Shown here: positions 10,199 through 25,744 of the stretch, in pieces
How the letters are laid out: every line of letters begins with the position of its first letter
Numbering within the stretch: the stretch's first letter is position 1
NCBI GenBank assembly: GCA_021775425.1
Contig: JAJFHX010000036.1
Span: 1-64,000 of the forward strand
Direction: 5' to 3'
Source: Hyphomicrobiales bacterium
GTDB lineage: Bacteria > Pseudomonadota > Alphaproteobacteria > Rhizobiales > HXMU1428-3
DNA length: 64,000 nt
Notes under the pieces: model-generated
The model's input: only the letters and a program-made list of their open reading frames with translations
What the model was told of the DNA's origin: nothing
Database searches by the model: none
Translations under genes and position numbers: made by a program

Positions 10199-10942
10199 GT
10201 GTCAGCTGCCGGAGAAAAAACAAAGCTGAAGAATATAAATGTATCTGTCTGGCGCGGTGATAGTGCAGGCGGCACTTTCCAGAACTACGCCGTCCCTGCA
10301 CAGGAAAGTCAGACAATTCTCGATGTCGTCGCCTGGATTCAGCAAAATCAGGATCCCACACTGTCATACAGATATGCCTGCCGCGTCGGAATGTGCGGCT
10401 CATGCGCCATGATGGTCAACGGCCAACCTCGCTGGACCTGTCGCACCCATGTGCAGAAGGTCATCAAAAAAAATAAACTTGTCATCGCTCCATTACGTAA
10501 TCTGCCGGTCATCAAAGACCTTGCCACAAATATGGATGAATTTTTTGATAAATGGGTTAGAGCCGAAGGGGTGTTTCATCCCACCAGAACCCGCGATGAT
10601 GAGATAGAAAAAATCAACCCTGAAACGTCAAAACGCGCCAGGGCCAATGCCGCAATTGAATGTATTAATTGCGCTGTATGCTATGCCTCCTGCGATGTGG
10701 TGTCGTCCAATAAAGACTATCTCGGCCCGGCTGCCCTCAACCGCGCCTGGTCTCTGGTCAATGATGTACGTGATGGCGCGCTAGACCAAAGGCTTGATGC
10801 TGTCTCTAAATCGGGCGGGTGCCACAATTGTCATTCACAGCATGGCTGTGTGAAGTTCTGCCCGAATGAACTAAACCCGACAGCCGCCATCGCCGGCCTC
10901 AAGCTGGAAACGGCAAAAACCATGTTCAGACGCCGGAGGTAG
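10199..10942 (+). CDS. sdhB: succinate dehydrogenase/fumarate reductase-type iron-sulfur subunit
   Basis: This is the electron-transfer subunit of a complex II-type enzyme, 247 residues. It starts with GTG directly after GGGAGGAAAC. The plant-type [2Fe-2S] ligands are C61, C66, C69 (CRVGMCGSC) and C81. The C-terminal bacterial ferredoxin part has C155, C158, C161, C165 (CINCAVCYASC), C208, C211, C217 and C221 (CHNCHSQHGCVKFCP). These are enough for the [4Fe-4S] and [3Fe-4S] centres, with one extra Cys. It is first in the order B-C-D-A, unlike the C-D-A-B order of the housekeeping sdh operon, and is probably a paralogue of that enzyme. The next gene follows after 5 bases. Confidence 0.9.
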   Translation: MSAAGEKTKLKNINVSVWRGDSAGGTFQNYAVPAQESQTILDVVAWIQQNQDPTLSYRYACRVGMCGSCAMMVNGQPRWTCRTHVQKVIKKNKLVIAPLRNLPVIKDLATNMDEFFDKWVRAEGVFHPTRTRDDEIEKINPETSKRARANAAIECINCAVCYASCDVVSSNKDYLGPAALNRAWSLVNDVRDGALDQRLDAVSKSGGCHNCHSQHGCVKFCPNELNPTAAIAGLKLETAKTMFRRRR

Positions 10943-10947
10943 AGCTT

Positions 10948-11280
10948 ATGCTGGATTTAAGATTATACATGGCGCAGCGCCTCACCGCCCTCATCATGGT
11001 GCCGCTCACATTCGGCCATATCGCTGTGATGATATACGCCATCGAGGGGGGGCTTTCAGCAGCAGAAATTCTGAGCCGCACCAAGGGCAGCCTGGCCTGG
11101 GCCTTGTTTTACGGTACATTCGTTGTCGCCGTCTCTATTCACGGAGCCATTGGCCTGCGTGTTATCATGTTTGAAACCTTCGACCTGAAAGGCAGACCGC
11201 TTAGCATCTTTTCATGGGCTGTTTTTCTCAGCCTGCTTTACCTTGGGGCACGGGCAGTCTATGCCGTGACAACAACATGA
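10948..11280 (+). CDS. sdhC: complex II membrane anchor subunit (cytochrome b type, C)
   Basis: The 110-residue product has three membrane helices (about 10-30, 47-70 and 85-105). The N-terminal LYMAQRLTALIMVPLTFGHIAVMIYA and VSIHGAIGLR contain histidines placed as in haem-b ligands of SdhC/FrdC-type anchors. GGAGGT precedes the ATG by 6 bases. Its TGA overlaps the next ATG as ATGA, so the two anchors are translationally coupled. The symbol reflects position and fold; sequence identity to classical SdhC is likely low. Confidence 0.75.
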   Translation: MLDLRLYMAQRLTALIMVPLTFGHIAVMIYAIEGGLSAAEILSRTKGSLAWALFYGTFVVAVSIHGAIGLRVIMFETFDLKGRPLSIFSWAVFLSLLYLGARAVYAVTTT

Positions 11281-11615
11281 ACCGGCACCGCACACATACA
11301 CTATGGATCGCCTTTATTCTGCACCGCTTCTCGGGTGTAGCTCTGGTTTTATTTCTGCCACTGCATTTTTATCTGCTCTCCATGGTGCTGACAGATCCGG
11401 AAACGGTTGATCAGCTATTGCACTGGACCAAACATCCGCTAGTTAAAGTCGCTGAATTTGGGCTGGTATTTTTGCTTTCAGTACATATTTTCGGCGGTCT
11501 GCGCTTAATGGCCCTTGAATTTCTACCCTGGGCTTCCTGGCAAAAAACAATGGCCGCTTTTTCTGTTGCAGTTTCATTCCTGATTTCCTGCACTTTCTAT
11601 TTGAGCGCCGTTTAA
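11277..11615 (+). CDS. sdhD: complex II membrane anchor subunit (D)
   Basis: The 112-residue protein starts at the ATG overlapping the previous stop. It has three membrane helices (about 9-30, 55-78 and 88-110). LWIAFILHRFSGVALVLFLPLHF and LSVHIFGGLRLMALE match the anchor family: HRxSG is the quinone-site motif of SdhC-type anchors and H in LSVHIFGG is a likely haem ligand. The anchor with HRFSG could equally be called C and the preceding one D. With the neighbours it would form a membrane quinone-linked dehydrogenase or reductase. Confidence 0.75.
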   Translation: MNRHRTHTLWIAFILHRFSGVALVLFLPLHFYLLSMVLTDPETVDQLLHWTKHPLVKVAEFGLVFLLSVHIFGGLRLMALEFLPWASWQKTMAAFSVAVSFLISCTFYLSAV

Positions 11616-11638
11616 GAAACATGAGGAGTAGTAAATAT

Positions 11639-13402
11639 ATGACCACGCGCCAGAATATAGACCGGCACGATACTGACATCCTCATCCTTGGCACTGGCGG
11701 CGCCGGGCTGTTTGCCGCTCTTCATGCGCAAAGAACAGCGCCCGATAAAAAAATCACCATTGCTGTTAAAGGCTTAATCGGCAAATGTGGCTGCACCCGC
11801 ATGGTGCAGGGTGGGTATAACGTTGCCCTTGGGCAGGGCGACTCAGTTGAGCGCCATTTTATGGATACGATACAGGGCGGCAAATGGCTGCCAAATCAGG
11901 ACATGGCCTGGAAACTTTGTGAAACAGCCGTGGTTCGTGTGCGTGAACTGGAAAACGAAATCGGCTGTTTTTTTGACAGGAATGAAGACGGCACCCTTCA
12001 TCAGAAAGCCTTTGCCGGCCAGACTTTTGACAGAACCGTCCACAAAGGTGACCTCACCGGCATCGAAATTATCAACCGCCTGATGGAACAGGTCCTCTCA
12101 CGCCCAATAGAAAAACTACAGGAACACCGCGCCATTGGTCTCATCCCCTCAAAAGACGGCACAGCTCTGGCAGGTGTGTTATTTATCGATATGAGAACCG
12201 GCGGGTTCAGGTTCGTGCGCGCCAAAACAGTGCTGATGGCCACCGGCGGCGGCCCGACAATGTACAAATACCACACACCCTCAGGTGACAAAACCATGGA
12301 CGGTCTGGCCATGGCTTTAAGGCGCGGCTTGCCATTAAGAGACATGGAAATGGTCCAGTTCCACCCAACCGGGCTGCTTGGCGGCGCGGGGACAAAAATG
12401 ACCGGTACCGTTCTGGAAGAAGGCTTGCGCGGTGCAGGCGGCATCCTTCTGAATAACCATGAGCATCGCTTCATGTTTGATGTGGATGAGCGCGGCGAAC
12501 GAGCAACAAGAGACATCGTCAGCCGCGGTATCTATGCGGAAATGCGCAAGAACAACACATCCCCAAATGGCGGGGTTTACATTTCAATGAGCCATCTTGG
12601 GCCGGATAATGTCCGTAAAAAATTCCCCGGTATGGTCAAACGCTGCGCCGATAGTGGTTTCGATCTGGCGGGTGACAAGGTCGAGGTGGTGCCAACAGCA
12701 CATTATTTTATGGGCGGCGTTGTCGTCGACCCTGACACAAGAACCGATTTGCGCGGGCTTTATGTGGCTGGCGAAGATGCAGGCGGCGCACACGGCTCTA
12801 ACCGCCTTGGCGGCAATGGTGTTGCTAATTCTACCGTTTATGGCGGTGTCGCAGGTGACGTGATGGGCAAGGACATTCAGAGTTTCAACGCCCTTCATGA
12901 GCCGGATGAAACCATCCTTGATGAAGAAATATCAAGAGCCTTACACCCGCTTAGCAGAAAGCCAGCCAACATCCAGACTTTGCGAAACAGGCTGATGGAT
13001 GTAATGTGGGATGAAGTTGGCGTACTGCGCACCGAAAAGGGCATCCTTCGTGGGCTTGCGGCTTTGGATGACATCACCAGTGAATTAAGCGAACTTGGTG
13101 TCGATGGTGGCAACCTTGCTTTTAACCTGACCTGGCATGACTGGATCAACCTGCAAAGCCTTTGTGAAATTTCTAAAGTGATCGCCAGCGCCGCCTTATC
13201 GCGTGAAAATTCACGCGGCGCCCATTTCCGTGAAGATTTCCCCGAAAGCGGCAGCATGGAAAGTTCCTATTTCACCGTGGCCCGCCAAAAGGGTGACGAA
13301 CTCAACGTAGCAAGAGAACAGGTCGAGTTCACCATCGTGAAACCGGGTGAAACCCTCTTGAAAGACAATGAAGCCGAAAGCATGTTGGAGGCGATAAAAT
13401 GA
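11639..13402 (+). CDS. sdhA: succinate dehydrogenase/fumarate reductase-type flavoprotein lacking the FAD-linking histidine
   Basis: This is the catalytic FAD subunit, 587 residues from ATG 11639, which has GAGGAG 10 bases upstream; the longer ATG at 11621 lacks a site. It has a Rossmann dinucleotide motif (ILGTGGAGLFAALHA). Active-site regions of the family are present: QFHPTG, RATRDIVSR, PTAHYFMGG and SNRLGGNG. Where SdhA/FrdA have SHT..AQGG, with His carrying covalent FAD, this protein has GCTRMVQGG, with C52 in the His position. FAD is therefore probably not covalently bound, which usually shifts such enzymes away from succinate oxidation. The real substrate may be fumarate (reduction) or a succinate analogue. 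Its stop overlaps the next start (ATGA). Confidence 0.88.
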   Translation: MTTRQNIDRHDTDILILGTGGAGLFAALHAQRTAPDKKITIAVKGLIGKCGCTRMVQGGYNVALGQGDSVERHFMDTIQGGKWLPNQDMAWKLCETAVVRVRELENEIGCFFDRNEDGTLHQKAFAGQTFDRTVHKGDLTGIEIINRLMEQVLSRPIEKLQEHRAIGLIPSKDGTALAGVLFIDMRTGGFRFVRAKTVLMATGGGPTMYKYHTPSGDKTMDGLAMALRRGLPLRDMEMVQFHPTGLLGGAGTKMTGTVLEEGLRGAGGILLNNHEHRFMFDVDERGERATRDIVSRGIYAEMRKNNTSPNGGVYISMSHLGPDNVRKKFPGMVKRCADSGFDLAGDKVEVVPTAHYFMGGVVVDPDTRTDLRGLYVAGEDAGGAHGSNRLGGNGVANSTVYGGVAGDVMGKDIQSFNALHEPDETILDEEISRALHPLSRKPANIQTLRNRLMDVMWDEVGVLRTEKGILRGLAALDDITSELSELGVDGGNLAFNLTWHDWINLQSLCEISKVIASAALSRENSRGAHFREDFPESGSMESSYFTVARQKGDELNVAREQVEFTIVKPGETLLKDNEAESMLEAIK

Positions 13403-14361
13403 TATCAATAGATCTTATTCAGCAAACAGCGGAAACGCTGATGGATAAAGCGGCCATCGAAATTCCGGATGATTATCTGGATGGACTGAAAAAAACCGCC
13501 AGTCAGGAAGATGGAGACCTTTCATCATTCGTGCTGCAAGCAATGCTGGAAAATTATCAGGCCGCAAAAGAAGACCGACGCGCGATGTGCGGTGATACAG
13601 GTTGCCCACGCTGGTATGTAAAAATGGGCAATGAAGCACAAATCGAAGGCGGCGCCATAGCACTTGAAGCGGCCCTGCGCCGCGCAACGGCAAACGCAAC
13701 CAATGGCGTACCATTGCGGCCCAACCGCGTTCATCCTTTATGGCGCACAGACCATGATAACAATGTCGGTATCGGCGCACCCGAAATTGAATATGGCTTC
13801 GAGCCTGGTGGTGATTGGGTTGACCTCATCACCGTTCACAAAGGCGGTCTGTTCGGCACAGATTATCGCATGCTGTTCCCAAGTGATGGCATTGAAGGCA
13901 TCAAAAGATTTTATCTGGATTGCCTCGTTGCCTTTGGCAAAAGGGGGCTTGCCTGCCAGCCTGCTATCATTGGCATTGGCCTTGGTGGGTCAAAAGATAC
14001 CTGCATGGTACTTGGCAAACGAGCCGCCTGCCTGCGTGTGGTCGGTGACAAAAATCCTGATCCGAAAATAGCTGCACTTGAAGATGAATTTAAAGAATTG
14101 GGCAACAGCATCGGCATGGGTGCGATGGGCTTTGTGGGTAAATCCATGGTCATCGATTGCAACATCGAAGTTGGCTATTGCCACACAGGTGGCATGCAAA
14201 TGTCAGTTCATGCTTTTTGTCTCTCTTCAAGACGTGCCGTCGCCCGTGTTTTTGGCGATGGCCGTGTGGAATACAGAACAGACCCCGACTGGTTCACAGA
14301 TTATCAAAGAAGGGATACCGTTGAATGGAACATTCCGGAAAACCAAACAAAATCCGCTTAA
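13399..14361 (+). CDS. class I fumarate hydratase / L-tartrate dehydratase-type alpha subunit
   Basis: This is the iron-sulfur hydro-lyase large subunit, 320 residues. Family features are the CGDTGCPR segment (usually CQDTG, first cluster Cys), the PLRPNRVHPL and DHDNNVGIGAPEIEYGF region, KGGLFGTDYRM, and the GIGLGGSKDTCMVLGKRA loop preceded by a Cys-Gln-Pro. The SIGMGAMGF segment completes the active site. Such enzymes add or remove water across a trans-dicarboxylate double bond and carry an oxygen-sensitive [4Fe-4S] cluster. The split alpha/beta arrangement fits both two-subunit fumarases and tartrate dehydratase, and I cannot choose. It overlaps the flavoprotein gene by 4 bases and the beta subunit by 37. 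Confidence 0.85.
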   Translation: MISIDLIQQTAETLMDKAAIEIPDDYLDGLKKTASQEDGDLSSFVLQAMLENYQAAKEDRRAMCGDTGCPRWYVKMGNEAQIEGGAIALEAALRRATANATNGVPLRPNRVHPLWRTDHDNNVGIGAPEIEYGFEPGGDWVDLITVHKGGLFGTDYRMLFPSDGIEGIKRFYLDCLVAFGKRGLACQPAIIGIGLGGSKDTCMVLGKRAACLRVVGDKNPDPKIAALEDEFKELGNSIGMGAMGFVGKSMVIDCNIEVGYCHTGGMQMSVHAFCLSSRRAVARVFGDGRVEYRTDPDWFTDYQRRDTVEWNIPENQTKSA

Positions 14362-15002
14362 GCACCAACCCCACCAATGAAGCGCTAAGCAAACTGAAAA
14401 TCGGCGATATTGTTTATCTTGATGGTGTTGTGTACACAGGCCGCGAAGGCGTTTACATGCGCGCCATTGAAGATGGTGAACCCATCCCGATGGATCTTCC
14501 CGCTGAAAGTGCCGCGAATTTCCATTGCTCCCCCGCCGCCGTTCAGAATGAAGATGGTTCGTTTAACATGGGCGCGGTTACAGCCACGGCCTCATTCAGA
14601 TTTTCCAAATGGATTGGCGCCTGGTTTAAAATGTCAGGCGCAAAACTGATCCTTGGCAAAGGCGGCATGAGCCCGGAAGACTATAAAAAACACTTTGTCC
14701 CCAACGGCGCGATTTATCTGACAACAGTTGGCTATGGCACAGGTGCTTTGTTAGGCCGCGGCGTCAAACAGGTCAGAGCTTTACATTGGCGCAAAGAGCT
14801 TGGCCTCGCACAAGCCATCTGGGTCATTGAAGTTGAAAACTTCGGCCCTTTCATTGTGGAATCTGACCTTGAAGGCAACAGCCTGTTTGAGCGTGAAAAC
14901 GCCAAAATCGCGGAAAATCTCTCTAAAGCCTATGAAGGTACCAGACCTGCGGTGCTAAAACGGTTTGGAGAAACAGATGACCGAAAAGACGAACTGATAT
15001 AG
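14325..15002 (+). CDS. class I fumarate hydratase / L-tartrate dehydratase-type beta subunit
   Basis: The 225-residue swivelling C-terminal subunit is the partner of the preceding gene. It shows LKIGDIVYLDGVVYTGREGVYMRA and GAVTATASFRF, corresponding to the TAGPTTS-type region of the family. LILGKGGMSP and the YLTTVGYGTGALLGRGVKQV strand are also characteristic. ATG 14325 lies inside the alpha gene (37-base overlap) and has AGGGA 10 bases upstream. It has a distinct N-terminal extension before the conserved part (residues 1-18). The GTxTG motif is altered to VTATA. Together with the dehydrogenase it would turn a saturated dicarboxylate into its 2-hydroxy product through an unsaturated intermediate. 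Confidence 0.85.
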   Translation: MEHSGKPNKIRLSTNPTNEALSKLKIGDIVYLDGVVYTGREGVYMRAIEDGEPIPMDLPAESAANFHCSPAAVQNEDGSFNMGAVTATASFRFSKWIGAWFKMSGAKLILGKGGMSPEDYKKHFVPNGAIYLTTVGYGTGALLGRGVKQVRALHWRKELGLAQAIWVIEVENFGPFIVESDLEGNSLFERENAKIAENLSKAYEGTRPAVLKRFGETDDRKDELI

Positions 15003-15055: not shown

Positions 15056-16171
15056 ATGCCTGCCAACGACAATCCCGATATCATAAATCCATTTCTTGAT
15101 GCTTCCAATCGTGTTCATATTGAAGATGGCAGCTACATCAGAAATGAAGTTGACCTGGCCAACCGTAACTCAGGCCTGCTGCTGGAATTATTGTCTTGTG
15201 ACATCACCCCAATTGGCGCGCACTACCTCCTCAATCATTTTGACGTGCCGATATTAGACAGCAGCACGCATACGCTCGCTTTTGAAGGCGCCTTTGAAGC
15301 CCCTTATAAAATCACACTGGATGAAATTAAATCCCTGCCAAAAATCACCATGCCGGTAACGCTGGAGTGTTCCGGCAATGGCCGCGCCGGCGTTCAGCCA
15401 AGATCAAGATCAATGCCCTGGCTATATGAAGCCGTTGGCACGTCAGAATGGACCGGCACACCCCTAAAACCATTATTAGAACAAGCTGGCCCGTTGCAGG
15501 ATGCAATGGAGATTTGTTTTACAGGTGAAGATCGGGGGTTTGATAAAGCGATTGAACACAATTTTGCCCGCAGCCTGACCTTGAAACATCTGGAAAATCT
15601 TGAAGCACTACTTGTTTATGAAATGAACGGTCAACCATTATTACCCCAGCATGGCGCCCCCTTGCGGCTGATTGTGCCGGGTTGGTATGGCATGGCCAGT
15701 GTCAAATGGCTTTCAAATATCACCGCGTTGACTGAAGCCTTTGATGGCTATCAGCAGGTCGGCACCTATCATTACCGTAACGACCATGACGATCCGGGCA
15801 TCCCGGTTGAAGACATCCGCGTAAAATCACTGATGAAACCACCGGGTATCCCTGACTGGCAAACCCGCCAGCGATTGGTCGAGCAGGGCACAGTCCCCCT
15901 CATGGGCCGTGCCTGGTCTGGTGGTGGCCGCAACATCACAAAAGTTGAAGTCGGCATTGATGATCAGTGGCAGGAAGCCACACTGGATAGCAATCAGCAT
16001 GACTATGCCTGGGTCAGATGGCAGCATGAGTGGCAGGCAAAGCCGGGCCGTTATACCCTCCGTTGCCGGGCAACCGATAGCGAAGGCAATGTTCAGCCCC
16101 TTACCCCGCCGTGGGATACGTCAGGCTTTGGCAACAACAAATGCCAGGAAATCATCGTTTTCGTGAGATGA
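15056..16171 (+). CDS. sulfite oxidase-type molybdopterin enzyme (cytoplasmic)
   Basis: The 371-residue protein has the oxidoreductase molybdopterin domain (about 60-230) with the Mo-ligating cysteine in PVTLECSGNGR. Further family segments are EWTGTPL, LLVYEMNGQPLLPQHGAPLRL and PGWYGMASVKWL. A C-terminal Mo-co dimerisation (Ig-like) domain follows (about 250-371, RAWSGGGRNITKVEVGID). It has no signal peptide and no haem domain, so it resembles plant-type or other cytosolic sulfite oxidases rather than periplasmic SorA. It starts 53 bases after the hydro-lyase and has AAAGGA upstream. It is likely in the same transcript. With the TauE/SafE exporter nearby it hints at sulfite release in this pathway, but sulfite as substrate is not proven by sequence. 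Confidence 0.85.
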   Translation: MPANDNPDIINPFLDASNRVHIEDGSYIRNEVDLANRNSGLLLELLSCDITPIGAHYLLNHFDVPILDSSTHTLAFEGAFEAPYKITLDEIKSLPKITMPVTLECSGNGRAGVQPRSRSMPWLYEAVGTSEWTGTPLKPLLEQAGPLQDAMEICFTGEDRGFDKAIEHNFARSLTLKHLENLEALLVYEMNGQPLLPQHGAPLRLIVPGWYGMASVKWLSNITALTEAFDGYQQVGTYHYRNDHDDPGIPVEDIRVKSLMKPPGIPDWQTRQRLVEQGTVPLMGRAWSGGGRNITKVEVGIDDQWQEATLDSNQHDYAWVRWQHEWQAKPGRYTLRCRATDSEGNVQPLTPPWDTSGFGNNKCQEIIVFVR

Positions 16172-16196
16172 ATGTGCTCATCACGTCTAAGAAATG

Positions 16197-17378
16197 TCAT
16201 GTCTCATTCTGAGCGAGTGAAAGCGTTTGATATGGCATCAGCGCTTCCGGCAAGGCTTCAACACCAAGGCCAGCACTTTCACGAAGGTCCATCATCCCCT
16301 CACTGATTGATAAGTCAAACAGTTCCCGCAGCGGGTTGGGGTTGGCATCAACCTCAAGCCGTCCATCACCCCGTTCACCAAACCCGGCCGCCGCCAGCAA
16401 ATGAGCCGAAGCAAGAAGACCAATGCCGCCACCAAGAAAATGCGGACAATAGCGGATCTTTGCCTGAATGATAGCACGCGCCACTTGAAAACACCCCGTA
16501 AACCCGCCCCATTTCGCAAGATCAGGCTGCAATACTCCAAAATGCTGGCTTATAATCGCAGCTTCAAATTCCGCAAATCCGGCCATATTTTCCCCGCCGG
16601 CAAGAGGTACTGAACTGGCCTCAGAAAGCCGCTGCCAATCATCAAAAGGTGCGTCAGCAGCAAGCGGTTCTTCCAGCCATCCAATTTGAAGACCTTCCAT
16701 TCGTTCGGCAAATCTAATGGCTTCAGAAACACCCCAGGCCTGGTTCGCATCAGAAAAAAGCTGTTCTCCATCTGATAGAGAGCCACAAAGTGAGCGAAGC
16801 TGAGTGATGTCATTATCATGCCCAAAACCAATCTTCACTTTAAACGCGGTATAGCCAGCCTGACGGCAATCGCCAATCATCTCAGCCCCACGGTTGATAT
16901 GAATGCCGCTTGCGTAAACGGGTACAGTTTCATTCGCCGCCTCATTGAGATATATTCGCAAAGGCAAACCTTTTCGGCGAGCACAAAGGTCATAGGCCGC
17001 TATATCCAGACCGGCGATCACATGCCGAAACGGCCCCCATTCACCACACTGAAGCGCGCGGATATGGGTTTGGCTTTCAAGCTTGTGGAAAAAATCAGCA
17101 GGGCTTTCAAATTCGACCCCCAAAACCAGGTCAGCAATATCTTCCATCAGAAGTCTGGCCCGGTGTTCCGCACCAGCTGCTGGCCAGTTGGCAAAAATCT
17201 CACCAAATCCAAACGCTCCGTCACGGTCAGTCAGCTTGACAAACACAGCCGGCCTGTCACGCATAATGCCAAACGAAGTCGCAACCACCTTGGTGATCGG
17301 CACACGGTAAACAGAGCATTCTATTCGTGAGATGATGAAAGGGTCGTTCTGAGGCAAAGAAGAGTTGTCTGCTATCAT
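16197..17378 (-). CDS. mandelate racemase/muconate lactonizing enzyme family protein (enolase superfamily)
   Basis: The 393-residue enzyme has the N-terminal capping domain and C-terminal TIM-like barrel of the enolase superfamily. Visible residues are the KVK pair (K180, K182), Mg ligands D210 (SDANQAW), E236 (EEPL) and E263 (GGEN), and an Asp-His dyad D286 (QPDLAKWGG) with H313 (CPHFLGGG). This is the mandelate-racemase subgroup pattern, typical of acid-sugar dehydratases and racemases. The substrate is not predictable from these residues alone. It is the last gene of the lysR-exporter-enolase operon, starting 11 bases after the exporter stop. It converges on the molybdoenzyme gene with 25 bases between stops. 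Confidence 0.9.
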   Translation of the reverse strand: MIADNSSLPQNDPFIISRIECSVYRVPITKVVATSFGIMRDRPAVFVKLTDRDGAFGFGEIFANWPAAGAEHRARLLMEDIADLVLGVEFESPADFFHKLESQTHIRALQCGEWGPFRHVIAGLDIAAYDLCARRKGLPLRIYLNEAANETVPVYASGIHINRGAEMIGDCRQAGYTAFKVKIGFGHDNDITQLRSLCGSLSDGEQLFSDANQAWGVSEAIRFAERMEGLQIGWLEEPLAADAPFDDWQRLSEASSVPLAGGENMAGFAEFEAAIISQHFGVLQPDLAKWGGFTGCFQVARAIIQAKIRYCPHFLGGGIGLLASAHLLAAAGFGERGDGRLEVDANPNPLRELFDLSISEGMMDLRESAGLGVEALPEALMPYQTLSLAQNET

Positions 17379-17389
17379 ATTTACACCAG

Positions 17390-18127
17390 CTAAATCAGTT
17401 CTCTAATCATCAGCACCAGACCGGAAACCAGCATCAGCGCAATCAACAGCCTGCGAAACTGATCATCTTCAAGCCGCTTAAAAACCATAATGCCGATCTG
17501 AGCCGATACCATTGTCACGGGTAAAGCAACACCAATTATAATCAGCGTTTCTAAAGTATAAGCCCCCTGTAGTGCCAGCAGAAATGCTGATAGTGCAAGT
17601 ATGGTCACATTAAACGGTTGCAATACAGCACGTTGTTCTGCCTTTTGCCAGGGGCGCAGCGAACACCACATGGTCGGTAAAGCGCCAGAAAGACCAGCCG
17701 CCGCCCCAAGAATGCCACCTAAAAAACCAATCACCCCATCAATAATGGGTGTTGGCCGTGTCATTGTTGGCAAGTCTTTTCTGAAAGTAAAAAAGCCACC
17801 ATAAAGAATAAGAAACCCGGCAATGACCAGTTTTAAATATTTCGGGTCAAGAACTGTCAGAAGATATAACCCGAGCGGAATTCCGAAAATTGCCGGAACA
17901 AGAAAACGACCAAGCCGCGGCCAGTTGATAGATTGCCGAACCAGCACAACCCCCTGAATGCCACTGAAAACTGACATCGCCAGAACTATCGCAACCGCTT
18001 GAACCGGCGGCATAATCTGCAACCACCAGCCAAGCGCAAACAGGGAAGTACCAAACCCGGCAAGCCCGTTAATGAAACCTCCGGCCGCGGCACCCGCCAC
18101 CAGCAATAAAATAAATTCAAATGTCAT
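17390..18127 (-). CDS. TSUP family (TauE/SafE) membrane exporter
   Basis: The 245-residue membrane protein has about eight helices and the two internal repeats of the TauE/SafE family. The motif AGAAAGGFINGLAGFGTSLFA opens repeat one and GFLGGILGAAAGLSGALPTMW opens repeat two. Known members move sulfite, sulfoacetate, sulfolactate or other organic anions. Its place between a LysR regulator (6 bases) and an enolase-superfamily enzyme, and opposite a sulfite oxidase-type enzyme, suggests it handles an anion made or used by this pathway. The ligand is an inference. Confidence 0.9.
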   Translation of the reverse strand: MTFEFILLLVAGAAAGGFINGLAGFGTSLFALGWWLQIMPPVQAVAIVLAMSVFSGIQGVVLVRQSINWPRLGRFLVPAIFGIPLGLYLLTVLDPKYLKLVIAGFLILYGGFFTFRKDLPTMTRPTPIIDGVIGFLGGILGAAAGLSGALPTMWCSLRPWQKAEQRAVLQPFNVTILALSAFLLALQGAYTLETLIIIGVALPVTMVSAQIGIMVFKRLEDDQFRRLLIALMLVSGLVLMIRELI

Positions 18128-18132
18128 GTGAT

Positions 18133-19041
18133 TTAAGAGGCCTTTGCAACTGTTTCAGGGGTGCAATGGCCAATTTCAACGGCCCTTGCAAGCTTGCCAT
18201 AAACAGCATCAAGAACTCTGACTTTAACGGTATCATGTCTGTAAAGCAGACCAATCGTCCGCGAACAACCATTTTCACCAAGTGAAATCCGTTTAAGCGG
18301 AAGCGGGTTCGCCGCAGCAACACAGCGCTTGGGCACAATAGAAACCCCAAGGTTACAAAGCACCATGCTGGAAATTGATTCAAGGCTGACAAGTTCCATA
18401 CTGTCAGTCACTTTAATCTGTTTGGCCCGCAACCAGTTTTCAATTTTACCGCCAACAACCGCATCACGTGTAAAACGGATAAAAGGATTATTTTCAAGAA
18501 GATAGATAGGGTCGTCACTATCAGTCTCAAGCGAAGCCAGCAACTCCATCGGCTCAACCGCAATCTCCCGCCAGGATTGCACCGCTTGTAAAACATTTGG
18601 TTCCGTCACAATCGCGGCATCAACCGTACCGCGCTCAACCTGCAGCGCGAGATCAGTCGTCAACCCCGGCACCACAAACACATGCAAATCAGGATAATCA
18701 CGTTTCAGCATTGAAATGGCAAACGGCACCAGCCCGGTTAATGTGGTTGGCACAGCACCCAACACCAGATTACCGCTCAAGCCGTCATCACCAACAATCG
18801 AAGGCACGATATTATCATAGGCGTTGACAACTTCTCTTGCCTTAGCCACCAGCGCCCGGCCAACCGGCGTTAACTCCGGTGTCCGTTTGGTGCGATCAAA
18901 AATGCCGATGTTCCACTCTTCTTCAAGCGCTTTCATCTGCTGGCTTACCGCCGCATGCGTGACATAAATTTCATCCGCCGCAGCACTGAAGGTTCCGTTT
19001 TCAGCCACTGCAATCAGTGTTTTTAGCATTCTGATGGACAT
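18133..19041 (-). CDS. LysR family transcriptional regulator
   Basis: The 302-residue protein has an N-terminal winged helix-turn-helix (MLKTLIAVAENGTFSAAADEIYVTHAAVSQQMKALEEE, given here as residues 4-41) and a C-terminal periplasmic-binding-protein-like effector domain (about 90-290). It heads a minus-strand operon with the exporter and the enolase-family enzyme. It is divergent from tctC, the usual position for a LysR protein that controls both sides. The 174-base gap carries a GTAAG-G-CTTAC palindrome. The effector is probably the transported acid or a metabolite of it. Confidence 0.93.
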   Translation of the reverse strand: MSIRMLKTLIAVAENGTFSAAADEIYVTHAAVSQQMKALEEEWNIGIFDRTKRTPELTPVGRALVAKAREVVNAYDNIVPSIVGDDGLSGNLVLGAVPTTLTGLVPFAISMLKRDYPDLHVFVVPGLTTDLALQVERGTVDAAIVTEPNVLQAVQSWREIAVEPMELLASLETDSDDPIYLLENNPFIRFTRDAVVGGKIENWLRAKQIKVTDSMELVSLESISSMVLCNLGVSIVPKRCVAAANPLPLKRISLGENGCSRTIGLLYRHDTVKVRVLDAVYGKLARAVEIGHCTPETVAKAS

Positions 19042-19215: not shown

Positions 19216-20202
19216 ATGAAAATCAAGATGATAGGTGCATTTTGCGCCTTGCTATCCGTAACTGTATCCGCCCCGCTAATGGCTGCTGAATATCCAGACC
19301 GTCCCGTTAATATGGTTATCCCATATGGTGCTGGTGGTGCAACTGATATATCAGCACGCACCATTGCAGAACCATTGACCAAAGCTGTTGGCCAGCCCCT
19401 TGTCATGGTCAACAAAAAAGGGGCAGGTGGTGCAATCGGTTCTGTAGCAGTTCAGAATGCCAAAAAAGATGGCTACACCCTTTTATTCGCTCGTGTTGGT
19501 TCCCACTCTGTCAGCCCAGCGATGAAAGCCACACTGCCGTACACACTTGAAGATTTCCGCTTTGTCGGTGTTTACGAAATCAATCCGGTGGCCTGCGCCG
19601 TTAAAGCTGATTCGGATATTAAATCGATGGCTGATCTGGTCAGCAAAGTAAAAGCCAAACCGGGCACAGTTTCTTACAGCTCTTCAGGTGTTGGCTCTAT
19701 GCTTCATCTCGCTGGTGCCATGGTTTTGAAAGAGTTTGGTATTGAAAAGCCATTGGAAGCTGCAGTGCATATTCCTAAAAAAGGTGGCGGTGCCGCCGCT
19801 GCTGCCGTGCTGAAAGGCACAGCGACTTTTATCTGCACAAATTCATCTGCTCTGGCAAGTTTTGTGAAAAACAAGCAATTGCGCCCGATTATGGTGACCA
19901 CAGCCAAACCAATTGTTGGGTTTGATGCCCCAACCTCAGTTGATCTTGGCAAACCAAATCTTCAGCAACTTGTAGGTTGGACAGGTGTTGCCGGTCCAAA
20001 AGGCATGAGTGATGAGATTGCAAAAAAATGGGGCGGTTACCTGAAGGAAGCCACCAGCAATGAAGAATTTGTAAAGAAGATGGAAGCCCGTGGTTCAATC
20101 ATCCGTTTGATGGAACCTCAAGAGTCTCAGGATTTCATCAATGGACAATACAAAATCTTCCGCGCCCTGGTTGATGAACTCGGTATGCGTATTAAAGGAT
20201 AA
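19216..20202 (+). CDS. tctC: tripartite tricarboxylate transporter substrate-binding protein
   Basis: This is the periplasmic solute receptor of a TTT (TctCBA) system, 328 residues, with a signal peptide (MKIKMIGAFCALLSVTVSAP, cleavage after LMA). The mature start EYPDRPVNMVIPYGAGGATDISARTIAEPL and the PGTVSYSSSGVGS region are hallmarks of the Bug/TctC family. GGGAGG precedes the ATG by 8 bases. Family members bind carboxylates such as citrate, tartrate, terephthalate or glutarate; which one here is unknown. It is the first gene of a long plus-strand transport and catabolic operon. Confidence 0.95.
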   Translation: MKIKMIGAFCALLSVTVSAPLMAAEYPDRPVNMVIPYGAGGATDISARTIAEPLTKAVGQPLVMVNKKGAGGAIGSVAVQNAKKDGYTLLFARVGSHSVSPAMKATLPYTLEDFRFVGVYEINPVACAVKADSDIKSMADLVSKVKAKPGTVSYSSSGVGSMLHLAGAMVLKEFGIEKPLEAAVHIPKKGGGAAAAAVLKGTATFICTNSSALASFVKNKQLRPIMVTTAKPIVGFDAPTSVDLGKPNLQQLVGWTGVAGPKGMSDEIAKKWGGYLKEATSNEEFVKKMEARGSIIRLMEPQESQDFINGQYKIFRALVDELGMRIKG

Positions 20203-20339
20203 TACGCTTAGCGACAGCGTGTTCGTATCTGAATAATTCTAATAACAACAAAACAACACGCTTCAAAAAATAATGAGAGCATTCTTCTGATAAAAATAAA
20301 AAAATATGCTCTAATTAAAAAAATCATATTTTGAGGAGT

Positions 20340-20370
20340 GAGGCACACTGTAAATATCACGGTGTGCCTC
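20340..20370 (+). promoter_or_regulatory. intercistronic mRNA hairpin between tctC and tctB
   Basis: GAGGCACAC (20340-20348) and GTGTGCCTC (20362-20370) form a 9-bp perfect stem, extended by a G-U and a G-C pair. No T-run follows, and the tctB Shine-Dalgarno sequence starts 5 bases later. It fits a 3'-end stabiliser or partial attenuator that keeps the binding protein more abundant than the membrane subunits. Confidence 0.6.
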
Positions 20371-20387
20371 AATCGGGAGGAAATTCC

Positions 20388-20969
20388 TTGCAGGATCAGA
20401 CCACCACCAAACTGCCAGGTGAAACCGCTTCAATCACAGATGATATACCAAATGGTAATCAGGATAGTGAAGCTGTAAAAAATACCAGAACCCAGACGAC
20501 TATTGGCATCTGCGCCATTATCTTTGCAGTTTTCACTTACTTCGTCGCTATACCATACGGTGTATCGACACCATCAAATGTATCGAATATTGTTTTGTCT
20601 CCCTTGTTCTGGCCCAATATAATTGCGGGCTTAACCGGGCTGGTCGGGCTAGGACTGATATTAACGGCGAAAACAAAAATAATGACCATCACGCAAAACG
20701 AACCACCTTTTAATTTTTATGCCAGTGGTGGCTGGCAGCGTCTTGGCATTTTTGCCGTGTTACTCATCATCTATATGGCCTCCATATCAAGGCTCGGAAT
20801 AGTATGGAGCTCAATGCTGGCCTTTATCAGTCTCGCATTAATAATCAAAACCAATCACAAAATCACAGCGCTCATCGTCGCTGTACTGATGCCACTGGCG
20901 CTTTATGCCTTCTTCGCCCATGTCGCCGGCATTGCACTCCCGCAAGGGTTATTCGTGAGATTGCCGTAA
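20388..20969 (+). CDS. tctB: tripartite tricarboxylate transporter small membrane subunit
   Basis: This 193-residue TctB-family protein has four membrane helices (about 32-52, 70-90, 110-130 and 145-180). The long ORF begins upstream inside the hairpin. TTG at 20388 is the best start, because GGGAGG (20375-20380) lies 7 bases before it. The N-terminal 30 residues are polar and probably cytoplasmic. TctB subunits are poorly conserved; identification rests on size, topology and the flanking tctC and tctA genes. Confidence 0.85.
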   Translation: MQDQTTTKLPGETASITDDIPNGNQDSEAVKNTRTQTTIGICAIIFAVFTYFVAIPYGVSTPSNVSNIVLSPLFWPNIIAGLTGLVGLGLILTAKTKIMTITQNEPPFNFYASGGWQRLGIFAVLLIIYMASISRLGIVWSSMLAFISLALIIKTNHKITALIVAVLMPLALYAFFAHVAGIALPQGLFVRLP

Positions 20970-21004: not shown

Positions 21005-22516
21005 ATGGATTTTCTAGGCGATGCATTCCTGCAGAATATTATGGCCGGATTTGCGCTTGTCGCTAATGTTGAGAGCATTGCTGCACTTGGCATAGGCGTG
21101 ACAGTTGGCGTTATCGCGGGTGCCATCCCCGGCATGTCAGCGACTATGGCAGTCGCGCTGACATTACCATTTACCTTCTCGATGACACCGATTACCGGCA
21201 TTTTGCTGCTTCTCGGCGTTTATAAAGGGGGCATTTTTGGCGGTTCTATTCCAGCCATCCTGATTAAAACGCCAGGCACTCCCGCTTCAAGCGCAACCGT
21301 GCTTGATGGCCACCCGATGGCTGAAAAAGGCCAGGCAGGCAAAGCACTGGGCATGGCGCTCTGGTCTTCATGTACCGCTGATCTGATCTCAAATCTCTCG
21401 CTGATTATGTTCGCGGGCTGGCTGGCCTCGTTTGCTCTCAGCTTTGGCCCGCCAGAATTTTTCACCCTCATTCTTTTTTCCCTGACTATCATAGCCGGCG
21501 TATCAGGTGGCAGCCTGCTGCTTGGCTTTCTCTCTGCAGCAATGGGGCTCTTACTGGCAACCATTGGTCTTGATCTGGTCTACGGCACCGGCCGGTTCAG
21601 TTTTAATGATACCAATCTTATGGGCGGCCTGAATTTCATTGCCGTGTTGATCGGTCTGTTCGCCATTCCAGAAATACTAACCATGGTCTGGGACCCTTCA
21701 CCAAAAACTGAGAAACGCACCAAGCTGGGTGATAACTGGGTCACGTTCAAAGAATATAAATCCTGTTTCAAATCCATTATTCGCGGCAGTTTCATCGGCG
21801 TGTTTTTGGGTAGCATTCCGGGCATTGGCGCAGCGCCATCGGCCTTTCTCTCTTATAGTGAGGCCCGCAGAAAATCACCCAATAAAGAAAATTTTGGCAA
21901 AGGCGAAATTGAAGGCGTGGCCGCCTCAGAAGCTGGAAATAATGGCGTCGCTGGAGCAACGCTGATCCCACTGTTGGCACTTGGCATCCCGGGCGATGTG
22001 ATAACGGCCATCATCATTGGTGCCTTCATGATCCACGGCCTCCAGCCCGGGCCGCTGATGTTTGTTACCAATGGGGATATAATCTACGGGCTGTTTATGG
22101 GCATGATCATCAGCTCAATTTTCTTGTTTTTCGTTGGCTCAGTGGCTATTCGCGCTTTCCGTTTTGTAGCTGATATTCCAAGAAGTTTATTGTTCCCAAC
22201 GATATTAATCCTTTGTGTTTACGGGTGCTATGCGGTCAACAACAGCATCTTTGATGTTGGTGTCATGTTCGTGATTGGCTGGATCGGTTTTGTCATGTTA
22301 CGATACAACATCCCGGCAGCTCCCTTCCTCATCGCCTTTATTCTCGGGCCATTGCTTGAAGATAATTTCCGCCAGGCCATGTTAATGTCAGGAAGTTCAG
22401 CTTCCATACTGGTGCGCGGGCCAATCACCTGGTTCTTCTGGACACTGACCATCATCACGGTCGTCGCCATCATCCGCGCCGGTATAAAAAACAGCAAAAC
22501 CACAGCAATTGAATAG
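21005..22516 (+). CDS. tctA: tripartite tricarboxylate transporter large membrane subunit
   Basis: The 503-residue permease has about eleven to twelve membrane helices and the two TctA signature regions: GAIPGMSATMAVALTLPF near residue 40 and GSIPGIGAAPSAFLSYSEA near 270. It forms the secondary transporter with TctB and TctC, usually driven by Na+ or H+. AGAGGAAG precedes the ATG. The GabD-like gene begins 11 bases after the stop. Confidence 0.95.
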   Translation: MDFLGDAFLQNIMAGFALVANVESIAALGIGVTVGVIAGAIPGMSATMAVALTLPFTFSMTPITGILLLLGVYKGGIFGGSIPAILIKTPGTPASSATVLDGHPMAEKGQAGKALGMALWSSCTADLISNLSLIMFAGWLASFALSFGPPEFFTLILFSLTIIAGVSGGSLLLGFLSAAMGLLLATIGLDLVYGTGRFSFNDTNLMGGLNFIAVLIGLFAIPEILTMVWDPSPKTEKRTKLGDNWVTFKEYKSCFKSIIRGSFIGVFLGSIPGIGAAPSAFLSYSEARRKSPNKENFGKGEIEGVAASEAGNNGVAGATLIPLLALGIPGDVITAIIIGAFMIHGLQPGPLMFVTNGDIIYGLFMGMIISSIFLFFVGSVAIRAFRFVADIPRSLLFPTILILCVYGCYAVNNSIFDVGVMFVIGWIGFVMLRYNIPAAPFLIAFILGPLLEDNFRQAMLMSGSSASILVRGPITWFFWTLTIITVVAIIRAGIKNSKTTAIE

Positions 22517-22527
22517 GACATTTTAAA

Positions 22528-23991
22528 ATGACTGCGAGTTTAAGCAACAACACGCTTTTTCGTGAACAAGCCTTTATGTCTGGCATCTGGCAGGACGCTG
22601 AAAATGGCGCCACCGTCGAGGTGATTAACCCAGCAACCGGAGAGCGCATCGGCAGCGTCCCAGCCCTCACCAACAGTCAGATCACAACAACCATTAAAGC
22701 GGCCGAACAGGCCTTTCAAAGCTGGCGCAAAACAACCGCCGCCGAGCGCGCAGAAAAAATGCGCAGCTGGCATAAACTGATTATTGAAAACAAAGAAGAC
22801 CTCGCCCGCCTGTTAACAATAGAGCAGGGCAAACCACTTGCTGAATCGAGAATTGAAATTGGTGGCACCGCGAATTTTATTGAGTGGTACGCGGAAGAAG
22901 CAAGAAGGGTCTATGGAGATATCATCCCATCACCTGTTAACAACAGACAAACTCTGGTGACCAAACAACCCGTTGGAGTCTGCGCTGCTGTCACCCCGTG
23001 GAATTTCCCTTCGTCTATGATCGGCCGCAAAGTCGCCCCGGCCATCGCCGCCGGTTGCTCAATGATCATCAAACCATCAGAGCACACACCATTCTCAGCA
23101 CTGGCTCTCGCCGTTCTGGCTGAGCAAGCCGGTTTCCCAAAAGGGTTGATAAGCGTTGTCACTGGGGATTCTAAAGAAATCGTCAAAGTGATAACTGACA
23201 GCAAAACCGTGCGCAAACTTTCTTTCACCGGTTCAACCACTGTTGGCAAGCTGCTCATTTCACAATGTGCAGATACCGTAAAGCGCATGTCAATGGAACT
23301 TGGCGGCAATGCACCTATCATCGTTTTTGAAGATGCGGATATGGATGCCGCCGTTGAGGGTGTCATCAATACCAAATTCAGAAACGCAGGCCAGACATGC
23401 ATCTGCGCCAACAGAATATTCGTTCAGAACTCCATTCGTGAAACTTTCATGGCCCGGCTCAAAGAAAATGTCGCCAAAATGAAAGTCGGCTCCGGCCTTG
23501 AAGAGGGAACTGTTATTGGTCCGATGATCCATAAAGAGGCCGCAGAGGAAATGACCAATATAATCAAAAAGGCAACAGATCAGGGCGCGAAAATTTTATT
23601 AGGCGGCAACCCACACGAAAAAGGCATCTGTTATTTCGAGCCGACCATCCTAGAACATGTGACCACAGATATGGATGTGGCAAAAAACGAAATTTTTGGT
23701 CCCATCGCACCTGTCATCGGCTTTGATACGGAACACGAAGTCATCGAAAAAGCAAATGATACAGATTATGGCCTCGCCTCATATCTTTATACAAGCGATC
23801 TCGGCCGTGCCTGGCGCATGTCCGATGAGCTGGACTATGGCATGGTCGGCATCAACGAAGTGGCAATTTCTAACGAAGTCGCACCATTTGGCGGTGTCAA
23901 ACAATCCGGCTTTGGCCGCGAAGGTTCTAAATACGGCATCGACGAATATCTGGATATCAAATATCGCTGCATGGCCGGGCTGGAAAGATAA
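22528..23991 (+). CDS. gabD: succinate-semialdehyde dehydrogenase-type aldehyde dehydrogenase
   Basis: This NAD(P)-dependent aldehyde dehydrogenase has 487 residues. It shows TPWNFPSSMIGRKVAPAIAAGC, the cofactor loop FTGSTTVGK, the general base Glu in MELGGNAP, and the catalytic Cys in NAGQTCICANR. The C-terminal GMVGINEVAISNEVAPFGG and GREGSKYGIDEYLDIKY are characteristic of GabD. The likely reaction is succinate semialdehyde to succinate, but close relatives oxidise glutarate or malonate semialdehydes. It lies in the transport operon, so its aldehyde is probably a product of the imported compound. Confidence 0.88.
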   Translation: MTASLSNNTLFREQAFMSGIWQDAENGATVEVINPATGERIGSVPALTNSQITTTIKAAEQAFQSWRKTTAAERAEKMRSWHKLIIENKEDLARLLTIEQGKPLAESRIEIGGTANFIEWYAEEARRVYGDIIPSPVNNRQTLVTKQPVGVCAAVTPWNFPSSMIGRKVAPAIAAGCSMIIKPSEHTPFSALALAVLAEQAGFPKGLISVVTGDSKEIVKVITDSKTVRKLSFTGSTTVGKLLISQCADTVKRMSMELGGNAPIIVFEDADMDAAVEGVINTKFRNAGQTCICANRIFVQNSIRETFMARLKENVAKMKVGSGLEEGTVIGPMIHKEAAEEMTNIIKKATDQGAKILLGGNPHEKGICYFEPTILEHVTTDMDVAKNEIFGPIAPVIGFDTEHEVIEKANDTDYGLASYLYTSDLGRAWRMSDELDYGMVGINEVAISNEVAPFGGVKQSGFGREGSKYGIDEYLDIKYRCMAGLER

Positions 23992-24117: not shown

Positions 24118-25728
24118 ATGCGAGGGGCAGACCTTTTAATTCAAACTCTGGCCAAAGCCGGCGTAACAAAAATATTCAGCCTTTCGGGTAACCAGATCAT
24201 GCCGGTTTATGATGCCTGCATTGACGCGAAAATCGAAATCATCCACACCCGTCATGAAGCAGCCGCCATTTTTATGGCCGATGCCTGGGCTCAGCTCACA
24301 GGTGAAGTCGGTATCGCCATGATCACCGCCGCCCCCGGTTTCGCAAATGGCATGGGCCCGCTTTTCACAGCAAGATTATCTGAAAGCCCTGTCATTCTAT
24401 TATCAGGAGATTCGCCAATCAGTCAGGATGGAAAGGGAGCATTTCAGGAGCTGGATCAGGTCTCTATTTCCGCGCCCTTAACAAAAGCATCCTGGCGCGC
24501 CAGAAGTGCGGCAAATCTGGGAAATGATATCGCGCGTGCCATAAGAACAGCCACCTCAGGCAGACCAGGCCCGGTTCACATTGCCTTGCCGTTTGATGTT
24601 GTGGAAGATAAAATTGATGATGTCAGCCTGCCATCAGAAAACGCTTTTAAAAGAGAAACTCAGCAAGCAACCAAAAGAGACCTTGAGCAAATCCGCACGC
24701 TGGTCGAGCAAGCTGAAAAGCCTCTTATCTTAACTGGGCCGTTATTGAACAAAACCAGAGCGGGGCAACTCATAAATGAATTAGAGCAAAGTCTTGATGC
24801 CCCCGTTATCACCATGGAAAGCCCAAGGGGCTTAAAAGACCCGGCATTGGGCTCATTCGCGGAAGCTTTAATGCAGGCCGATCTGATACTAAATCTGGGC
24901 AAAGTGGTGGATTTCACACTGGGCTTTGGCAACACCTCTGTCTGCTCCCCATCCTGCAAATGGCTTCTGGTTGACCCAGACGCAGACATGCGTGACCGCG
25001 CTTTCCTTAATCTCGGCAGCAGGCTGGTGAAAACCATCGCGGCAGACACACGCTCAGTAGCAAGAGCCCTCATAGAGAATGGAAGCAGGGCAACCGACAG
25101 AGCCGAATGGCGCCAGCACACGGCTGAGCTCATCAGCAAAAGAACAACCAACACTGACAAACTGGTGGAAGGAAAAATCTCACCCGCCGCACTTTGTGAA
25201 GCCGTTCAAAGGCAGATCGAAAAATCAGAAAACAGCCTCGCCATTTGTGATGGCGGGGAATTTGGCCAATGGGCCCAGGCCGGCACAAATGCAAAAGATC
25301 GACTGATAAACGGCATATCCGGCGCGATTGGTGGATGTCTCTGCTATGCCGTTGGCGCTAAAAAAGCCCGCCCGGACGCGAGCATCTTTGCATTGATGGG
25401 CGATGGCACTGTCGGTTTTCATTTTGCAGAATTTGAAACCGCCGCGAGAGAAAACACGCCCTTTGTTGTTATCATCGGCAATGATGAATGCTGGAATGCC
25501 GAACACCAGATCCAATTGCGCAATTATGGACCTGACCGGCTCATTGGCTGCCAGCTGAGCGGTGCAAGATATGATAAGGCCGCCATCGGCCTTGGTTGTC
25601 ACGGTGAATATGTAACCGAACTGGCAGATCTGGATGCAGCACTTGAGCGGGCCGTGAGCTCTGGCAAACCAGCCTGCGTCAATGTGGAAATTGCCGGGCT
25701 TCCAGCCCCTGCCGGAAGTGGCCACTAG
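24118..25728 (+). CDS. thiamine pyrophosphate-dependent enzyme (acetolactate synthase-like)
   Basis: The 536-residue protein has the three domains of the ALS/benzoylformate decarboxylase family. The pyrimidine-binding domain (1-165) includes the TPP-activating Glu in TRHEAAA (E47). A central domain (about 190-320) follows, and then the pyrophosphate domain with GDGTVGFHFAEFETA and the distal N in IIGNDECWN. It is not the housekeeping AHAS: it lacks a small-subunit neighbour. Catabolic relatives decarboxylate 2-oxo acids to aldehydes, or split oxalyl- or sulfo-compounds. Next to a semialdehyde dehydrogenase, a 2-oxo acid decarboxylase role is plausible. AGAGG precedes the ATG by 9 bases. Confidence 0.85.
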   Translation: MRGADLLIQTLAKAGVTKIFSLSGNQIMPVYDACIDAKIEIIHTRHEAAAIFMADAWAQLTGEVGIAMITAAPGFANGMGPLFTARLSESPVILLSGDSPISQDGKGAFQELDQVSISAPLTKASWRARSAANLGNDIARAIRTATSGRPGPVHIALPFDVVEDKIDDVSLPSENAFKRETQQATKRDLEQIRTLVEQAEKPLILTGPLLNKTRAGQLINELEQSLDAPVITMESPRGLKDPALGSFAEALMQADLILNLGKVVDFTLGFGNTSVCSPSCKWLLVDPDADMRDRAFLNLGSRLVKTIAADTRSVARALIENGSRATDRAEWRQHTAELISKRTTNTDKLVEGKISPAALCEAVQRQIEKSENSLAICDGGEFGQWAQAGTNAKDRLINGISGAIGGCLCYAVGAKKARPDASIFALMGDGTVGFHFAEFETAARENTPFVVIIGNDECWNAEHQIQLRNYGPDRLIGCQLSGARYDKAAIGLGCHGEYVTELADLDAALERAVSSGKPACVNVEIAGLPAPAGSGH

Positions 25729-25744
25729 CAGGAATGAGACGCAA

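Follow-up and report, generated by a model that had tools for sequence, protein, structure and literature searches.

We wondered what substrate is served by a six-gene operon, in the genome of a Hyphomicrobiales bacterium (NCBI GenBank assembly GCA_021775425.1), that joins a complex II paralogue to a class I hydro-lyase. The operon occupies positions 10199-15002 of the stretch of DNA that was analysed (64,000 nucleotides, positions 1 to 64,000 of contig JAJFHX010000036.1; hereafter the window). We find that it very likely serves organosulfonate catabolism in general and, with a probability of about 0.6, that it encodes a 3-sulfopropanoate:quinone oxidoreductase and a sulfoacrylate hydratase that would feed sulfolactate desulfonation. 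The six genes are as follows.

10199-10942, + strand: iron-sulfur subunit, SdhB/FrdB-like (247 amino acids, GTG start after GGAGG; Fer2_3 domain)
10948-11280, + strand: membrane anchor (110 amino acids; Sdh_cyt domain, three hydrophobic segments, His65)
11277-11615, + strand: SdhC-like cytochrome b subunit (112 amino acids; Sdh_cyt domain, three hydrophobic segments)
11639-13402, + strand: flavoprotein (587 amino acids; FAD_binding_2 and Succ_DH_flav_C domains)
13399-14361, + strand: class I hydro-lyase (hydratase) alpha subunit (320 amino acids, 4Fe-4S type; Fumerase domain)
14325-15002, + strand: class I hydro-lyase (hydratase) beta subunit (225 amino acids; Fumerase_C domain)

The first-pass annotation of this DNA had bound these genes into one unit by their overlaps, and this was borne out on the sequence: ATGA joints occur at 11277 (anchor/SdhC-like) and 13399 (flavoprotein/hydratase alpha), the two hydratase genes share a 37-base overlap, and there are zero internal stops across the six frames from 10199 to 15002. 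We compared 80 homologous loci, the best 80 of at least 580 flavoprotein relatives in the genome collection, which are close to the window and mutually related, so that counts over them are not independent. All six genes are present at 70 of these loci, with order and strand identical in 70 of the 70. The six-gene unit (sdhB-anchor-sdhC-sdhA-hydratase alpha-beta) is real and conserved beyond chance. It bears the hallmark of complex II, namely a flavoprotein, an iron-sulfur subunit and membrane anchors in one operon; the iron-sulfur subunit scores 199 bits against TIGR00384 (cut-off 88), and the SdhC-like subunit 61.7 bits against TIGR02970 (cut-off 52.3).

Residues and phylogeny of the flavoprotein and the hydratase

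Solved structures of FrdA, SdhA and L-aspartate oxidase align with the flavoprotein along its length. The flavoprotein passes no NCBIfam equivalog cut-off, its best match being TfrA of the methanogen thiol:fumarate reductase (492 bits, under the cut-off of 718). When we constructed a phylogenetic tree of 20 rows, a comparison with SdhA and FrdA that the first-pass annotation had proposed, the flavoprotein fell into a clade of its own (11 rows, support 97/100), which includes members from Pseudomonadota, Rhodococcus and haloarchaea and is separate from FrdA, SdhA and NadB; part of the backbone of this tree is not resolved, and the outgroup includes long branches.

It had also been proposed that Cys52 replaces the flavin-linking His of SdhA and FrdA. 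The loss of the His stands, as it is absent at or beside the site in all family rows, whether 19, 27 or 11 rows are taken, and Cys52 is found in every member of two alignments, 19 of 19 in the first (A1: 11 of the 14 flavoproteins from related genomes and 8 from plasmids) and 27 of 27 in the second (A2: 12 of the 14 and 15 of the 80 loci), the two having 11 rows in common (the window and ten relatives). The column-for-column match is less secure. The family carries one extra residue relative to SdhA and FrdA ahead of a conserved Thr; MAFFT aligns Gly51 with the His and treats Cys52 as an insertion of one residue, and an alignment anchored on the following Thr places Cys52 at the His position. 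Cys52 would therefore lie either at the position of the flavinylation His or next to it, an assignment ambiguous by one residue.

The complex II catalytic set is retained as His242, Arg291, His355 and Arg389. The Thr that binds the substrate carboxylate, which we take to be T244 in E. coli FrdA numbering, is replaced by Glu260 in 11 of 11 family rows, whereas comparable outgroup rows have Thr (7 of 8) or Ser (1 of 8; a ninth row, own_C29, was left out as too distant). A lengthened loop with T252, K/R253 and T255 precedes Glu260. Because the catalytic set is kept and the Thr is replaced by Glu, the residue changes point to an altered substrate, with dehydrogenase chemistry not lost. An AlphaFold model of the flavoprotein has a mean predicted local distance difference test (pLDDT) of 76 and a predicted template modelling score of 0.83, and its pLDDT is below 50 at residues 50-69, 238-249, 251-257 and 388-392, which take in the active site and Cys52; we therefore make no structural claim from it.

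The hydratase has the Fumerase and Fumerase_C domains and the cluster Cys of the class I fumarase/tartrate dehydratase superfamily: C64, C186 and C261 of the alpha subunit match Cys residues in the solved structure 7xky_A, and the beta subunit's GKGGM motif likewise aligns with the 7xky enzyme. Conservation was assessed over 90 alpha and 88 beta rows, stop-free and with more than 85% query coverage. The substrate loop of the beta subunit reads TATASFR at 98% or more across the 88 rows, in place of the GPTTSAR of 7xky and related enzymes. The alpha subunit passes the cut-off of the tartrate/fumarate domain model TIGR00722 and falls under the equivalog cut-offs of PRK06246 (197.5 versus 276) and PRK08230 (147 versus 365), while the beta subunit is under every cut-off, including that of TIGR00723 (122 versus 145).

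At about ten loci, a gene for a class III (CaiB/BaiF) coenzyme A (CoA)-transferase is found between the two hydratase genes. These loci are L063 (about 12756-13886; Roseovarius nubinhibens ISM), L105 (12714-13868), L088, L078, L127, L075, L069 and L114; at L087 the gene follows alpha, with beta off the contig, and L089 carries a CoA-transferase fragment.

Sulfonate genes near the operon and in carrier genomes

Sulfite disposal genes adjoin the operon in the window (15056-18127), and such neighbours recur. TauE is found near 48 of the 80 loci, whereas its density in the host genome (5 genes in 3.19 Mb) predicts about 0.034 per locus. At least one of TauE, YeiH, sulfite dehydrogenase, SuyA/B, ComC and SlcC is found near 52 of the 80, and near 40 of the 53 loci longer than 21 kb; in the 20 kb that surround the host's canonical sdhA, a search with the same reference proteins matched only the two succinate dehydrogenase subunits. 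The Paracoccus versutus locus has YeiH, TauE and ComC/SlcC-like genes, the Methylobacterium oryzae locus has SuyAB-, SlcC-, ComC- and SorA-like genes with YeiH, and in Paracoccus onubensis TauE is the seventh gene after the six core genes. Named plasmids carry SuyAB, ComC, SlcC, SorA or YeiH beside the operon, together with TauE. A SAR116 locus without a TauE of the window's type encodes two proteins whose best matches, below cut-off, are the alpha and beta subunits of sulfopyruvate decarboxylase. Other recurrent neighbours are a NIPSNAP-family small protein adjoining the operon (10 of 80 loci; at L033, 16458-16772) and a nitroreductase-family gene upstream of it (13 of 80; at L108, 7610-8470).

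The host genome (3.19 Mb, 50 contigs, 94% complete) encodes a sulfolactate desulfonation system, which comprises Xsc and a cluster on contig C48 in the order suyA-suyB-tctC-tctA-tctB-slcC-comC-yeiH-like; here the names SuyA and SuyB come from gene order and mutual similarity and are confirmed by no NCBIfam model, SuyB-like proteins having only a sub-threshold match to galactarate dehydratase. Among 101 related genomes, which are mostly of different genera and not independent, the flavoprotein is present in 14. SuyB-like proteins occur in 9 of these 14 versus 14 of the 87 without it (p = 3.7e-4), Xsc in 13 of 14 versus 19 of 87 (p = 4.8e-7), and one or the other in 14 of 14 versus 27 of 87 (p = 6.9e-7). 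Across 11 genomes drawn from the loci and the window, a SuyB-like match of at least 73% was found in 8 and Xsc over its cut-off in the other 3. Four further plasmid records gave a SuyB-like match at 77% in one, 34% in one and none in two; Xsc was over its cut-off in none of the four.

Haloarchaea offer a variant of this arrangement. Their loci, in Natribaculum and Haloarcula, encode the flavoprotein, the iron-sulfur subunit, SuyAB-like proteins and TauE, and one also an Ldh-family dehydrogenase; the class I hydratase gene was not found at them by the search used. Instead, a plasmid-borne ArgH-like gene (L039, 10218-11720; L150, 6293-7795) adjoins the flavoprotein gene. Its product passes the ArgH cut-off (323 versus 279.5 bits) and scores 260 bits against XcbC of bacterial coenzyme M synthesis (cut-off 575), an enzyme whose product is sulfoacrylate. 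It may be a true argininosuccinate lyase, or it may be a mis-annotated sulfoacrylate hydratase, in which case the sulfoacrylate hydration step would have been filled twice.

The distribution of the operon is patchy and looks like the outcome of horizontal movement. The flavoprotein was found in none of seven other species of the host genus searched and in 11 genomes of a phylum-wide sample of 398, and operon relatives are on plasmids of Paracoccus, Sulfitobacter, Methylobacterium, Cupriavidus and Pseudomonas. One contig labelled Oceanobacillus sp. HTM 045 (L100) carries the operon with a flavoprotein 76% identical to that of the window; its DNA seems high-GC, and the label or assembly looks doubtful.

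Neighbouring genes and a proposed route

Downstream of the six genes, the window encodes the following further proteins.

15056-16171, + strand: sulfite oxidase-like molybdenum protein (no evident signal peptide; separated from the hydratase by 53 bases)
16197-17378, - strand: enolase-superfamily (MR_MLE) protein (present at 5 of 80 loci)
17390-18127, - strand: TauE/SafE-family exporter (sulfite or sulfonate, predicted)
18133-19041, - strand: LysR-family regulator (LysR at 52 of 80 loci)
19216-20202, + strand: TctC of a tripartite tricarboxylate transporter
20331-20969, + strand: TctB of the same transporter
21005-22516, + strand: TctA of the same transporter (TctA at 27 of 80 loci)
22528-23991, + strand: aldehyde dehydrogenase, succinate-semialdehyde type (TIGR01780, 660 bits; cut-off 646)
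24118-25728, + strand: thiamine-diphosphate enzyme, near 2-hydroxyacyl-CoA lyase, acetolactate synthase and benzaldehyde lyase

The sulfite oxidase-like gene, which scores 179.6 bits against the SorA model (under the cut-off of 600) and has homologues at 9 of the 80 loci, is probably the final gene of the unit. For the thiamine enzyme, whose nearest solved structures are benzaldehyde lyase/formolase and 2-hydroxyacyl-CoA lyase, neither models nor PDB matches decided between lyase, synthase and decarboxylase. It occurs near 19 of the 80 loci and in 8 of 15 carrier genomes searched (E <= 1e-100; L127 not among the 15), and is therefore not essential. Adjoining it, at 25682-26704, is a 340-amino-acid protein with zero Pfam or NCBIfam matches. 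Further on (36130-47835), a single frame of 3901 amino acids combines several stretches of animal haem peroxidase with RTX calcium-binding repeats, and looks like a giant, secreted peroxidase.

In the route that we favour, the membrane-bound complex II paralogue would convert 3-sulfopropanoate, a succinate analogue in which sulfonate replaces one carboxylate, and quinone to 3-sulfoacrylate and quinol, and the class I 4Fe-4S hydro-lyase would add water to sulfoacrylate to give 3-sulfolactate. Sulfolactate would then be racemised by SlcC/ComC and cleaved by the SuyAB sulfo-lyase, encoded elsewhere in the host genome, to pyruvate and sulfite; in other carriers it might pass through sulfopyruvate and sulfoacetaldehyde to Xsc, which would yield acetyl phosphate and sulfite. 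Sulfite would be disposed of by TauE (export) and the sulfite oxidase-like protein (oxidation). TctABC is the probable uptake system, and the succinate-semialdehyde-type enzyme is a candidate 3-sulfopropanal dehydrogenase, which could form 3-sulfopropanoate from the aldehyde derived from homotaurine or 3-hydroxypropanesulfonate. We infer the substrate, the direction and each catalytic step from gene content and order, the flavoprotein clade, residues, and the neighbourhood and co-occurrence statistics. The route keeps the core of the first-pass proposal, that a dehydrogenase and a hydratase outside the housekeeping set turn a succinate-like acid into a 2-hydroxy acid, and favours its sulfo option over the methyl and hydroxy ones; the substrate is probably not a substituted succinate, as had been supposed.

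The chemistry has a precedent. A thesis (J. Mayer) cited in PMC11489063 (2024) describes conversion of homotaurine via 3-sulfopropanoate and sulfoacrylate to sulfolactate in R. nubinhibens ISM; the passage concerned states that degradation of 3-sulfopropionate by bacteria is otherwise unreported and leaves open whether gut sulfonate respirers use the same route. We found that R. nubinhibens ISM carries the operon, as one of the loci with a CoA-transferase gene between the hydratase genes, and encodes Xsc, with no SuyB-like match. According to PMC12421959, growth of a Paracoccus on sulfofucose raises a "fumarate and tartrate metabolism" cluster that includes a TauE homologue (P. wurundjeri cluster 3, MDP0926751-761; proteome data PXD043488), and we think that this cluster is probably the same operon. 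Our literature search found no paper tying these genes to 3-sulfopropanoate, and none joining sulfoacrylic acid with coenzyme M, or argininosuccinate lyase, sulfolactate and haloarchaea.

Several observations weigh against the proposed route. SuyAB adjoins the operon at just 2 of the 80 loci, and the case for sulfolactate as product therefore depends chiefly on co-occurrence at the level of whole genomes; a general "sulfonate eater" lifestyle could produce that pattern as well. At 28 of the 80 loci, among them 13 of the 53 that exceed 21 kb, none of the sulfur genes searched for lies nearby. Glu260, an acidic residue, would lie close to an anion with two charges, the CoA-transferase between the hydratase subunits is left unexplained, and the Paracoccus cluster was matched by description, not by sequence.

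We also considered a more elaborate, rather doubtful version, in which a sulfonate-dedicated complex II would hold flavin adenine dinucleotide (FAD) via Cys52 or non-covalently, and sulfoacrylate hydratase would have been recruited twice, from class I hydro-lyases in bacteria and from ArgH/XcbC-like proteins in haloarchaea. In some carriers, the CoA-transferase would then form sulfolactyl-CoA, which the thiamine enzyme would cleave to formyl-CoA and sulfoacetaldehyde for Xsc. The CoA-transferase and the thiamine enzyme occur together at only 2 of the 80 loci, and the sulfolactyl-CoA idea is therefore weakened.

Alternative substrates and comparison with known systems

The alternative that fares best, although we consider it unlikely, is that sulfosuccinate is oxidised to sulfofumarate, and that water is then added at the carbon bearing the sulfonate. 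The product, the bisulfite adduct of oxaloacetate, would break down to oxaloacetate and sulfite, so that the enzyme pair alone would release sulfite. This alternative would leave the complex II/fumarase-like pair with a C4 dicarboxylate as substrate, suit TctABC and DctA-type transporters, fit the frequent TauE, and make SuyAB unnecessary, in line with its rarity beside the operon. However, it does not explain the accompanying SuyAB, ComC, SlcC or Xsc, nor the pathway that the cited thesis outlines for R. nubinhibens.

It is quite improbable that the substrate is a carbon-only acid, for instance methylsuccinate converted via mesaconate to citramalate, with the sulfur genes as mere neighbours. 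Class I fumarases accept mesaconate, and the third-best NCBIfam match of the CoA-transferase found at about ten loci is succinyl-CoA:mesaconate CoA-transferase, albeit below cut-off; but TauE near 48 of 80 loci, Xsc or SuyB-like proteins in 14 of 14 related carriers and SuyAB-like genes at haloarchaeal loci would then be accidental company.

Equally hard to credit is hydration of sulfoacrylate at C3, which would give malonate semialdehyde and sulfite directly, followed by an MmsA-type dehydrogenase yielding acetyl-CoA. In Pseudomonas sp. MPC6 a gene for a CoA-acylating methylmalonate-semialdehyde dehydrogenase (TIGR01722, 695 bits; cut-off 448.5) directly follows the hydratase, the plasmid has neither SuyB nor Xsc (plasmid searched, chromosome not), and the window has an MmsA homologue downstream. 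Against this, MmsA is near 0 of the 80 genome loci, class I fumarases add water next to the carboxylate, and sulfolactate genes co-occur with the operon.

Finally, an ordinary alternative succinate dehydrogenase/fumarase, or the fumarate reductase fed by malate or tartrate that had been put forward as equally plausible, has family similarity on its side (the TfrA score and the alpha subunit above the TIGR00722 cut-off) and is hard to sustain given the clade-wide loss of the substrate Thr, the lack of any equivalog match for the flavoprotein and the sulfonate-type neighbourhoods, with their recurrent sulfite exporters, oxidases and sulfolactate enzymes. The separate set that the first-pass annotation had suggested looking for was found: a second succinate dehydrogenase (Fer2_3/FAD_binding_2) is on contig C24 and a FumC-type class II fumarase on contig C43, so that the operon is not the genome's only set, and we rejected a housekeeping role on this ground and fumarate reduction on the recurrence of organosulfonate genes. 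Apart from the beta subunit of the hydratase, the genome encodes no class I fumarase C-terminal domain.

If the 3-sulfopropanoate assignment is true, the operon would supply genes for a step of the marine sulfur cycle so far known only as a chemical outline, and would make 3-sulfopropionate degradation testable and searchable in genomes.

How does this system compare with those already known? It shares with complex II (SdhABCD/FrdABCD) the four subunits, the Pfam domains, the two three-segment anchors and the catalytic His/Arg/His/Arg, and differs in its order (B-anchor-C-A), the absent flavin-linking His, the invariant Cys52, the Glu in place of the substrate Thr and its separate clade. The methanogen TfrA, its closest NCBIfam relative, binds FAD non-covalently; here, in contrast, the flavoprotein is under the equivalog cut-off and membrane anchors are present, and electrons would therefore pass to quinone, not come from coenzyme M and coenzyme B. 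Like class I fumarase and L-tartrate dehydratase (FumA, TtdAB), the hydratase is a two-subunit 4Fe-4S enzyme with the cluster Cys and GKGGM, but it differs in its substrate loop and in a beta subunit below the TIGR00723 cut-off. The 3-sulfopropanoate route of R. nubinhibens matches in chemistry and organism, although the passage in PMC11489063 names no genes. Lastly, the SlcC/ComC/SuyAB system for sulfolactate degradation, as PMC12421959 presents it, is homologous to the C48 cluster, where suyA-suyB come first and slcC-comC after; it covers the downstream step, without the dehydrogenase and hydratase that the operon encodes.

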